Shown here piece by piece: positions 7,413 through 37,348 of a DNA stretch of 37,348 bases; the stretch's first letter is position 1, and each line of letters opens with the position of its first letter. Below the pieces are notes generated by a model. It had not been told where the DNA came from. It searched no databases and was given only the letters and a program-made list of their open reading frames with translations. Source of the stretch: Pseudomonadota bacterium (GTDB lineage Bacteria; Pseudomonadota; Gammaproteobacteria; GCA-001735895); assembly GCA_022566015.1 (NCBI GenBank), contig JADFJT010000017.1:1-37348 (forward strand), read 5' to 3'. The position numbers and the translations under genes were made by a program.

Positions 7413-8962
7413 ACAGAATAGACGAGTGGACTCAATTTATATCGAAGTGTCTGAAATCAGAAACCGAGCTGCTCGGGATACAGTCCAGACATGATATTTA
7501 CCAGGACGCGGCAAGAGCATCATTTATTCGCGTAGTACTCGATCAGTTTTTACCGAGTAGTTTTGCGGTTGGTTCCGGGCGCGTAATAGATGCGTCGGGT
7601 AACAGTTCCAACGAACTGGATATTGTTATCTACCGCAGAGATTTTCCACAACTCAATTTACCCGGCAGCACCAATGTTTTCCTGTTTGAAAGCGTATTGG
7701 CTACTGTCGAAGTGAAAACCAAGGTAGTACGGAAAACATTTTTCGAAGCACTCGATAACTGCGCCTCCATGGGTGATTTGAACCCGGCGATCAACCCTGT
7801 TGCATTACGAAAACTCGCCTTAAGAAATAAAATGATTTTGAACGAACAGGGCGAATTTGTACACGAAGACCCGCTAATATCCGCGCGATTTAATCTAATC
7901 GGACGCCCCCCTACTTTCGTCTATGCTTTTAGCGGATATCAAACAAGTCTAAAGCAGCTCAAGGAAAACATCGATTTATGGATAGGACATAGGCGTAAAA
8001 AACTATTGAACTATGAAATGAAATCATTTCCGTCGGTGATTGCTACACAGGGTTGTTTTGCCTGGCGAAACGCCGCACCTTTGTCGGTCAAAAAGAATTT
8101 TATGCTCGGCCTCGGCAATGATGACACCCCGATTCGGCTAATCATATTGCAATTAATGAATGCACTGAATCGACGCTTACGTGGCACCAACGATAGATCC
8201 GGGATGGAAATTAACCTGGACGCCTACATCAATAATATTGATCCACCAGCGTTCTCGTCCAGTTGCGGCAAAGTGATCAATCCTGCTGCGAAAACAACGA
8301 CCACAGCAGCTATAAAGGAAGCACCAAAAGAAAAAATTTCACCCCCAACAGCGAAGCAATCCGATCCAGCACCGGTTGAGAAGAAATTCGTATCGGCACC
8401 GCCAGAAAAGAAAGCTACTCCTGTTACGTCAGCCAGGAAACCGGCTTCGCCCACGACAGTTGAAAAAGTCGACCCAGCATCAGTAGACGAATCAGTAATT
8501 TCGGCTCCTGCCGCAGAAAAAACCAGCCCGGCCGCTGTAGAAAAGAAAGCTGAGCCGACCCCAGCACTGAGGGAACCAGCCCCAGTAGCGGAGGAAACAA
8601 CGGATGATAATTCCAAATTGGAAACCTATTCTGTTTTCAAACCTTCGGAAACGGATGAAAAGAAACCCGATCAGGCGGCAATCCCAGAGCCCAGAGCCAC
8701 AAACGGATTAAACTCGGCTATTGACTCAATGTCTAAGCAGGAACCCGAAATTGTTGAAGCGGAGCTGGCGCAACCCGAATTCATCGAACCTGATATTATC
8801 GAACCAGAGCCAGAGACAGAGCTAAAACCAGAGCTAAAACCAGAGTCAAAACCAGAACTAAAACCAGAGCTAAAACCCGCAATAGACTTCGCCACAAACC
8901 CGGAACCGGTGCAGATGCAGATGCAGATGCAGATGCAGATGCTTATGAATCTACCGCAGTGA
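7409..8962 (+). CDS. DUF6602-like protein with predicted PD-(D/E)xK nuclease-type core and long disordered tail
   Basis: The first about 285 residues look folded and resemble DUF6602. After a helical start comes GSGRVIDASGNSSNELDIVIY with Asp71, then a strand with EVK (Glu101, Lys103). This Asp...Glu-x-Lys spacing is typical of the PD-(D/E)xK nuclease fold, but activity is not shown. From about residue 286 to 517 the sequence is rich in Pro, Ala, Lys and Glu, with repeats such as LKPELKPE, so it is probably disordered. It ends in a hexanucleotide tract read as QMQMQM and a TGA. In the neighbouring frame the same tract reads ADADAD and continues into a similar repeat tail, suggesting a frameshift near the 3' end. 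Function unknown; such domains occur in defence-related and other accessory loci. Confidence 0.65.
   Translation: MNRIDEWTQFISKCLKSETELLGIQSRHDIYQDAARASFIRVVLDQFLPSSFAVGSGRVIDASGNSSNELDIVIYRRDFPQLNLPGSTNVFLFESVLATVEVKTKVVRKTFFEALDNCASMGDLNPAINPVALRKLALRNKMILNEQGEFVHEDPLISARFNLIGRPPTFVYAFSGYQTSLKQLKENIDLWIGHRRKKLLNYEMKSFPSVIATQGCFAWRNAAPLSVKKNFMLGLGNDDTPIRLIILQLMNALNRRLRGTNDRSGMEINLDAYINNIDPPAFSSSCGKVINPAAKTTTTAAIKEAPKEKISPPTAKQSDPAPVEKKFVSAPPEKKATPVTSARKPASPTTVEKVDPASVDESVISAPAAEKTSPAAVEKKAEPTPALREPAPVAEETTDDNSKLETYSVFKPSETDEKKPDQAAIPEPRATNGLNSAIDSMSKQEPEIVEAELAQPEFIEPDIIEPEPETELKPELKPESKPELKPELKPAIDFATNPEPVQMQMQMQMQMLMNLPQ
8910..8943 (+). repeat. Hexanucleotide tandem repeat (GCAGAT)n at the 3' end of the DUF6602-like gene
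   Basis: About five consecutive GCAGAT units lie immediately before the gene's stop codon. Hexamer gain or loss preserves frame, but such tracts are prone to slippage and mark the point where the reading frame appears to change between the two tail ORFs. Confidence 0.75.
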
Positions 8963-9369
8963 TGTCCCCGATTGATGCAAAATCAATTACTAAATCGGCC
9001 GTTAAATCGGAACCCAAACCCGAGTTGGAAGACAAACCTGAACCCGAAACAGATGAGTTTTCAGAAACGATCCAGATGCCGACTCACGAACTGGAAAAAA
9101 TATCATCGCGAAAATCGGCCGTTAAATCGGAACCCAAACCCGAGTTGGAAGACAAACCCAAACCCGAGTTGGAAGACAAACCTGAACCCGAAACAGATGA
9201 GTTTGCAGAAACGATCCGAATGCCGAGTCACGAGCTGGAAAAAACATTATCACCAAAATCGAATGCCGGATCGACACCAGCCAAGGATTCGAATCCAATG
9301 GCTAAAAATGGCCAAGGGCGTGTGAGTGAATCTGACCCTGACCCCTTTGGTAGGACAATACCACAATAA
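8959..9369 (+). CDS. Frame-shifted continuation of the DUF6602-like protein's repetitive tail
   Basis: This 136-codon ORF overlaps the end of the previous gene by four bases, starting at GTG 8959 or ATG 8962. It has no globular character: it is Glu, Pro, Lys and Ser rich and built from two imperfect copies containing KSEPKPELEDKP and then ETIxMPxHELEK. The same frame is open upstream through the hexamer tract, reading ADADADAYESTAV, which looks like ordinary coding sequence. Most likely it is the original C-terminus of the DUF6602-like protein, separated by a frameshift. Alternatively it is a separately translated, coupled small gene. No function can be given. Confidence 0.5.
   Translation: MMSPIDAKSITKSAVKSEPKPELEDKPEPETDEFSETIQMPTHELEKISSRKSAVKSEPKPELEDKPKPELEDKPEPETDEFAETIRMPSHELEKTLSPKSNAGSTPAKDSNPMAKNGQGRVSESDPDPFGRTIPQ
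8992..9245 (+). repeat. Tandem duplication of about 120 bp within the tail ORF
   Basis: The block starting AAATCGGCCGTTAAATCGGA at 8992 recurs at 9112, a period of 120 bases. The second copy carries an extra 18-bp internal repetition (AAACCCGAGTTGGAAGAC) and a few substitutions toward its end. High identity points to recent duplication in a repeat-expanding gene. Confidence 0.85.
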
Positions 9370-25325: not shown

Positions 25326-25437
25326 CAAATCAAGGCCGTCCCAGTATAAAAAATATCCTAAAGAACAATAATTGCCAGTGACTAAGTACGGATAGCGTAA
25401 CGTCCTGTAAAAAATTCCGTCGGTTACATCTCGATAG

Positions 25438-25551
25438 GAAGGCTGCCTCGGGTGAATGACCACAAAACCGTATTTTTCAGGGATGAAAAATCCGAGCGCC
25501 CACGGATGGGTTTACAGCGTGTTTTTTGGGCTTTCACCCTAGGTAGTCTGC
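25438..25551. repeat. 114-bp structured element with terminal inverted repeats and internal hairpins (MITE/REPIN-like)
   Basis: The 19-bp ends (25438-25456 and 25533-25551) are imperfect inverted repeats matching at about 15 positions, around GGGTGAA/TTCACCC. Inside are a perfect 8-bp stem ATTTTTCA-GGGA-TGAAAAAT (25472-25491) and CCCA-CGGA-TGGG (25499-25510). It carries no ORF. Words such as CAAAACCGTATTTTTCA and GCCCAC..ATGGGTT recur upstream of the RAYT gene at 36838-36897, which suggests a mobilised repeat family. It sits between the convergent ispH and histidine kinase genes. Confidence 0.65.
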
Positions 25552-25609
25552 TACCCATAAAAAGAAGCGTATAAATACCAAAATTACAGTTATGGTTTAC
25601 GTTAAATAG

Positions 25610-25632
25610 ATTCCGGGTCTTACGCCCGGAAT
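25610..25632. repeat. REP-like hairpin, possible ispH terminator
   Basis: ATTCCGGG, a 7-base loop and CCCGGAAT form a perfect 8-bp stem, followed by GACGG, a common REP flank, and 11 bases later by T5. It lies downstream of ispH and before the end of the convergent kinase gene. It could help terminate ispH, but the T-run is too distant for a textbook terminator. The rest of 25326-25646 outside this and the 114-bp element shows nothing clear. Confidence 0.6.
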
Positions 25633-25646
25633 GACGGGGTTCCTTT

Positions 25647-36788: not shown

Positions 36789-36909
36789 GTACCCGGCGGG
36801 TACTCTTCAAGAGTGAAGATACCTCGGTGAAAGGGATCAAAACCTTATTTTTCACAACAGATGCTCTTCAAGAGTGAAGATGTAGCCCACATGGGTTCAC
36901 CCACATGGG
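36789..36909. repeat. Cluster of REP-like hairpins and direct repeats upstream of the RAYT gene
   Basis: Contents in order: GTACCC-GGC-GGGTAC (36789-36803); TCTTCA-AGAG-TGAAGA hairpin (36804-36819); CCTCGGTGAA and CAAAACCTTATTTTTCA (36822-36854), the latter matching the 114-bp element near 25463 at 16 of 17 bases; the same TCTTCA-AGAG-TGAAGA hairpin again (36865-36880); and CCCACATGGG twice (36886-36895, 36900-36909). The repeats fill the 297-base gap between fumarase and the RAYT gene, as expected for REP sequences recognised by the adjacent transposase. The remainder, 36656-36788, shows nothing clear except the presumed fum promoter. Confidence 0.7.
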
Positions 36910-36952
36910 GTCAGGTCTTTCCAAATCACATCTGTCCTGTTAAACTCCACCA

Positions 36953-37348
36953 ATGGCAAGACCCCTGCGATTAGAATACCCTGGTGCAATTTATCATGTC
37001 ACCGCTCGAGGAGACAGAAGGGAATCGATCTATGAAGACGATAATGACCGATTACAGTGGTTAGATATATTGTCAAAGGCGTGTGAACGATATAACTGGC
37101 AAGTTCATGCTTATTGCCTGATGGATAATCACTACCATGTTTTGCTGGAAACCGCTGAGGGTAACTTATCGAAAGGTATGCGGCATTTAAACGGCGTCTA
37201 TACACAATATTTTAACCGCCAGCATAATCGTGTCGGTCATGTGTTTCAGGGGCGATTTAAAGCGATATTGGTTGAGAAGGAAGCCTACCTACTGGAATTA
37301 TCGCGATACGTAGTGCTCAACCCGATCAGAGCGCGGATGATTAAAGAT
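36953..37348 (+). CDS. REP-associated tyrosine transposase (RAYT, Y1_Tnp/IS200-like), 3' end beyond the window
   Basis: 132 codons from ATG 36953 are open to the window end: MARPLRLEYPGAIYHVTARG is the standard N-terminus of Transposase_17/RAYT proteins. The HUH-type motif is YHVLL in DNHYHVLLET, and the later GHVFQGRFKAILVEKEAYL and SRYVVLNPIRA stretches are family hallmarks. The probable catalytic Tyr and the end are not visible or not certain. RAYT proteins are usually single-copy and mobilise or shape REP/REPIN palindromes in the genome (established). The hairpin cluster immediately upstream is the likely substrate. It is missing from the ORF track because it is open-ended. Confidence 0.9.
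   Translation, partial: MARPLRLEYPGAIYHVTARGDRRESIYEDDNDRLQWLDILSKACERYNWQVHAYCLMDNHYHVLLETAEGNLSKGMRHLNGVYTQYFNRQHNRVGHVFQGRFKAILVEKEAYLLELSRYVVLNPIRARMIKD

Follow-up and report, generated by a model that had tools for sequence, protein, structure and literature searches.

The YPAL/RU-2 repeats, which the literature consulted reports from Yersinia and Erwinia and links to no transposase, offer the closest point of comparison for the element studied here. According to PMC2229807, YPAL/RU-2 copies measure about 168 bp and lie at or next to dyad symmetry, where they are accompanied by duplications of 3-26 bp, and YPAL is said to be co-transcribed with upstream genes, perhaps affecting RNA stability. 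RU-2 as printed in PMC2759123 includes the conserved head discussed below.

The element of the window (the whole stretch of 37,348 nucleotides that was analysed) shares with YPAL/RU-2 a two-hairpin head, whose 27-nt pattern is exact in Yersinia similis and Sodalis and is contained in the printed RU-2, as well as a long palindromic stem and intergenic copies. Insertion at dyad symmetry with variable duplications, observed for family members in Pantoea, Sodalis, an E. coli plasmid copy and, as regards the target, genome G370, may be a further likeness. It differs from them by other outer ends, by the arrangement of two inverted units with a linker hairpin and by modules found in the tips of many copies. 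REP/REPIN families and their RAYT transposases present a second likeness, that of palindromic intergenic repeats often arranged as inverted pairs with one foldable strand. However, REPs measure 20-40 bp whereas the units described here reach about 105 bp and bear two tip hairpins, and flank tests revealed no association with RAYT genes. Classical MITEs (RUP, Correia/NEMIS, ERIC) are likewise short, non-autonomous and intergenic, and terminal inverted repeats (TIRs) exist in some lineages of the present family, such as that of genome G370. Unlike these MITEs, the element possesses a conserved internal head on a drifting stem, its duplication in Pantoea is a whole target hairpin instead of a short fixed motif, and no matching insertion sequence was found. 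The BOX elements of Streptococcus pneumoniae are modular repeats with optional internal units, as is the window element, but they differ from it in sequence, structure and phylum.

The window carries a real, dispersed and structured mobile element of the YPAL/RU-2 superfamily, and its mobilisation by a RAYT, put forward as an inference in the initial annotation, is not supported. Taken as a whole, the structured stretch is probably unit B of a non-autonomous, MITE-like element of this superfamily, and a trans-acting enzyme other than a RAYT would move it by recognising its folded strand.

The window copy and its family

The fold first proposed for positions 25438-25551 was borne out, with an imperfect outer stem and the two hairpins TTTTTCA-GGGA-TGAAAAA and CCCA-CGGA-TGGG. 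The RNA fold of 25425-25565 has a z-score of -2.8, equal stability being reached in 1 of 200 shuffles. The same stretch had been described as free of ORFs: one ORF of at least 80 aa does overlap it (96 aa, minus strand), and it is without coding signs. Positions 25438-25551 are only the right-hand unit (B) of a longer element, for which the following parts were recognised.

25395..25427, plus strand: remnant of unit A, 3' arm (GCGTAACGTCCTGTAAAAAATTCCGTCGGTTAC), by comparison with intact A units of other copies
25429..25442, plus strand: linker hairpin joining A and B (TCTCGATAGGAAGG; family form CCTCGATAGTGAGG)
25429..25555, plus strand: linker and unit B, full match to model R2 (cmsearch, 129.4 bits, the window copy being among the sequences from which R2 was built; blastn against its own genome)
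25443..25546, minus strand: unit B as found by the unit-A model R1, whose alignment excludes the window copy (cmsearch, 44.1 bits, E = 8e-9)
25472..25491, plus strand: tip hairpin 1, ATTTTTCA-GGGA-TGAAAAAT
25498..25511, plus strand: tip hairpin 2, GCCCA-CGGA-TGGGT

Since the unit-A model matches the window's unit B on the opposite strand, units A and B are inverted relatives. The window copy has lost the 5' arm and head of unit A to deletion and retains the 3' arm alone; it is probably an old copy, with most of unit A gone. Immediately right of the element, at 25604-25640, stands a separate REP-like hairpin (ATTCCGGGTCTTACGCCCGGAAT). Elsewhere in the window, 8802-9261 holds 12-bp and approximately 144-bp tandem repeats within predicted reading frames.

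The two related copies first noticed understate the family. A blastn search of the window's genome (2.97 Mb, 197 contigs) with 25425-25565 gave 47 matches, and merging these with the matches of the unit-A model yielded about 38 elements on 32 contigs. Many contigs stop at a copy, as expected for repeats in a draft assembly. The many copies and the within-genome covariation that backs their stems confirm a repeat family with internal secondary structure, unlike single-hairpin REPs, as the initial annotation had suggested.

An intact copy runs from an inverted unit A (GTAACCACCGG...GGTTAC) through the linker hairpin (CCTCGATAGTGAGG) to unit B. When reversed, unit A has the layout of B, namely an outer stem, a hairpin with a GGGA loop and a hairpin whose loop reads TGGA or nearly so. 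In some copies, the tip hairpins contain extra short palindromes, among them GGTCCGGCGCCCCGGATC, CCGATGCGTCGGACCG and TACATCCATGTAG, at recurrent positions. Neighbouring units stand in plus-minus order in 18 of 28 pairs, and the outer boundaries of copies in this genome are not sharp. Same-orientation tandem arrays also occur, at locus L099 and at G563:C1:94417-95656, the latter with a period of about 228 bp. At L004 (G000:C15) and L014 (G000:C43), the same gene tail adjoins opposite element ends in opposite orientation, which may reflect an inversion, a strain mixture or a misassembly.

Kinship and distribution

The head CGCCGTRAAYMCATCCMTGKRGGCTCG and the second tip hairpin are exact in the copies from Yersinia and Sodalis, and also in L007 and others from the window's genome; unit B of the window is a diverged form of this head. 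The copies of Yersinia similis and Sodalis correspond to the Rfam family Ysr224 (RF02770). Model R1, built from the window's genome, finds the Yersinia copies with 36-38 bits (E = 3e-6 and 7e-6 for the set searched), values that are not independent of the head pattern because the loci had been chosen by it. Searched against Rfam, the window gave no match, and the gathering score of RF02770 was not reached. By reading, the outer ends of the copies in the window's genome differ from the TGACAAA...TTTGTCA type. Judged on its head, the window element belongs to a YPAL/RU-2 superfamily, outside Ysr224 sensu stricto. None of six 16-nt words of the head was found printed in the literature searched.

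The 27-nt head pattern occurs in at least 120 stretches of named genomes. Among the matches listed, titles refer to Gammaproteobacteria or unclassified proteobacterial MAGs, with two MAGs labelled Klebsiella, and the genera include Rheinheimera, Stenotrophomonas, Xanthomonas, Marinobacter, Halopseudomonas, Microbulbifer, Methylotuvimicrobium, Yersinia (Yersinia similis), Sodalis and others. With the unit-A model, copies were found in many genomes of the same genus and in other families of the class, and several near-complete genomes of the same genus had none. A model derived from 116 aligned matches was positive in 78 of 370 sampled genomes of the class; when the phylum was sampled, all 25 positive genomes (out of 299) belonged to the same class. 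Present in about one fifth of the sampled gammaproteobacterial genomes, the superfamily offers many natural experiments for finding the enzyme involved.

Searches of phages and plasmids returned matches in Pantoea megaplasmids only. In E. coli, 5 of 5426 genomes carry one copy, on a plasmid in four of these. The E. coli copies L284 and L285 adjoin genes for threonine ammonia-lyase and an iron-containing alcohol dehydrogenase together with transposase remnants, and probably represent a fragment captured from another enterobacterium. Within the genus of the window's genome, the element lies downstream of the same gene in four species (L065, L066, L067 and L078), and contig C14 of the window's genome and contig C460 of G013 have neighbour genes in common. 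Since the same gene adjoins elements in several species of the genus, some copies may be old and retained instead of recently mobile.

Foldable strand and target sites

In each unit a two-hairpin head of conserved sequence surmounts a long stem, which keeps its pairing while its sequence drifts. Over 115 named copies, left arms are only 30% identical from copy to copy, and arms nevertheless pair far better with their own partner than with the arms of other copies (score 20.2 vs 7.0), 106 of the 115 reaching at least the 95th percentile. In the alignment, 93.7% of cells are paired, a share that falls to about 42% when partners are shifted by one to three columns, double changes affect 24 of 25 stem pairs, and the covariation score is 0.853 compared with 0.185 after shuffling. 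The arm-pairing test is the cleaner one, since the covariation alignment was fitted to the structure of the model and the arm test was not.

The mismatches in these stems tell which strand folds. On the unit-A strand, A:C outnumbers G:T (167 vs 55) and pyrimidine-pyrimidine outnumbers purine-purine (169 vs 48), with sign tests over copies, treated as independent, of 2e-11 and 3e-13. Read on the opposite strand, these mismatches become G:T, G:A and G:G, which are best tolerated by a folded strand. In the window's genome the bias is 38 to 4 in unit A and, on its own strand, is reversed in unit B (25 to 4), as predicted from the inverted arrangement of the two units. The pattern implies that one strand, that of 25438-25551, is kept foldable, and folding of either RNA or single-stranded DNA would fit it.

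A structure kept mainly for an RNA role, as a 3'-UTR stability element or an sRNA, with movement being incidental, would account for the tolerance of G:U, G:A and G:G on one strand, although the same mismatches are tolerated by single-stranded DNA. The proposed transcription of YPAL with upstream genes and its possible effect on RNA stability (PMC2229807), and the identity of the Yersinia and Sodalis copies with Ysr224 point in the same direction. So does the apparent excess of intergenic copies at convergent gene pairs, accompanied by a deficit at divergent pairs, for which mechanical gene calls were used and gaps within the same loci served as the baseline. However, units often form inverted pairs, so that any one transcript contains a single foldable unit of the pair; orientation relative to co-directional genes is not significantly biased (21 vs 12); and occurrence is patchy within a genus. 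We consider a primarily RNA-based explanation unlikely.

The attC sites of integrons likewise have long variable stems, recognition of which depends on structure and strand, and the units resemble them in principle. The copies are nonetheless scattered among ordinary genes and no recurrent integrase appears among the neighbouring ORFs; with the core-site motif judged by eye only, an attC-like recombination site seems a highly improbable identity for the element.

Evidence of movement comes from plasmids of Pantoea agglomerans, where presence and absence of the element were found at otherwise near-identical sites. The word AAACTGCGCGGCTTCCACCGCGCAGTTT occurs once in the empty site and on both sides of the element in the filled site, the insertion having duplicated a whole 28-bp terminator hairpin. 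In a related Pantoea, the same element has extra hairpins nested in a tip and has lost one flank copy. Repeats of a hairpin at the two ends of the element occur in Sodalis too, and in one E. coli plasmid copy. The duplicated terminator hairpin of Pantoea provides a concrete and testable integration model.

In genome G370, GGTTCTTCGCGGAAAAGCGGGGAG and its inverse form the two ends of the full element, and 11 such TIR-bounded elements of 85-593 bp were found. With a terminator finder for which a positive control was available, 9 of these 11 adjoin a hairpin with an A/T run, compared with 0.9% of control positions; the same test gave 0 of 16 for copies in the window's genome. Targeting of terminator hairpins is thus observed in G370 and the enterobacteria and would apply to the window's genome by extension. 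Direct repeats on the two flanks, scanned for in general, hardly exceeded background: repeats of at least 11 bp were seen in 4 of 75 cases, one of them an array unit, where about 1.5 were expected. The search of the window's genus for empty sites by DNA comparison matched one neighbour, at about 70% identity, and the comparison within the genus of G370 covered three genomes.

How the element moves can be proposed from these observations. A trans-acting enzyme other than a RAYT would recognise the folded strand and cut a hairpin, or an extruded cruciform, at its base, and such a cut would turn the target palindrome into the target-site duplication. The element's own hairpins could serve as similar acceptors, which would explain the nested hairpin modules in the tips. 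Extended to a class-wide superfamily of mobile DNA, in which a putative enzyme recognises the head in its folded form, cleaves hairpins or cruciforms at their base, duplicates the target palindrome and uses the element's own hairpins as acceptors to generate mosaics, this scheme is a tentative possibility. No 1-3 kb TIR-bounded copy that could act as autonomous partner was found in G370, and such a partner is hard to test for in the window's genome as contigs break at repeats. Among recurrent neighbouring proteins, judged by reading their sequences, the search for a candidate enzyme gave common families only, for instance ABC transporters and dehydrogenases.

This lack of an enzyme beside the copies, together with nested modules, variable tips and the tandem arrays of L099 and G563, is what would be expected if palindromes grew and dispersed through template switching during replication and through recombination at hairpins, with no dedicated enzyme at all. 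The conservation of the head sequence across the class, the recurrence in G370 of full-length copies that share their ends and the clean filled and empty insertion sites suggest a directed process instead, and make spread by template switching rather improbable.

The RAYT gene of the window

The right end of the window, where the repeat had first been linked to a transposase, contains three features.

36798..36854, plus strand: truncated relic upstream of the RAYT gene, made up of the linker and the 5' half of unit B, by blastn with L011/L012
36882..36909, plus strand: separate GTAG-tagged palindrome (GTAG CCCACATGGG TTCA CCCACATGGG) outside the element, from its sequence
36953..37348, plus strand: RAYT/TIRYT gene, of which the contig end leaves the 5' part (PF01797 match, translation, flanks)

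The repeat does resemble the RAYT flank, and more extensively than first reported. The relic, missed by the covariance models, is 84% identical over 57 nt to copies L011/L012 (E = 8e-13 against the window) and stands about 100 bp upstream of the gene. The shared word GCCCAC..ATGGGTT has to be set aside, as it is part of the GTAG-tagged palindrome and probably not homologous. The layout of this palindrome is of the GTAG-REP type of PMC3733652. The relic is bracketed by two direct copies of an 18-bp palindromic word (CTCTTCAAGAGTGAAGAT, 36803-36820 and 36864-36881), which may correspond to two linker copies or to a duplicated target hairpin.

A REP/REPIN-type family moved by the RAYT would be in line with this relic, with the hairpins, inverted pairs and one-strand folding that REPINs also show, and with a weak association across genomes. 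At a threshold of E 1e-5, a Y1_Tnp match was obtained for 60 of the 78 genomes with the element and for 179 of the 292 others (odds ratio 2.1, p = 0.011, uncorrected for genome size or phylogeny). The expectation that the repeat occurs only in genomes with a RAYT is contradicted by the 18 element-bearing genomes without a Y1_Tnp match, 5 of them element-rich, although draft genomes may miss some genes. The window's genome has eight Y1/RAYT loci, and no unit lies within 1.5 kb of the seven others, the truncated relic at the window's RAYT being the only trace. Conversely, a search of 148 element loci (0.98 Mb) with four RAYT queries gave no match at E 1e-4, while the positive control worked. The RAYTs also have ends of another type: GGGGTCAG, at 36907-36914, precedes the RAYT/TIRYT gene of the window, and several RAYTs of this genome have their own ends of this type, described for TIRYTs (PMC3733652).

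HUH Y1 enzymes are not known to make long target-site duplications such as that in Pantoea. Flanks, neighbouring genes and phyletic profile lend no support to the RAYT as mobiliser, a role that we regard as quite improbable, and standing next to a RAYT evidently says little about how a repeat is mobilised. At L094 (G000:C140), a RAYT reading frame is apparently broken by another string of small hairpins.
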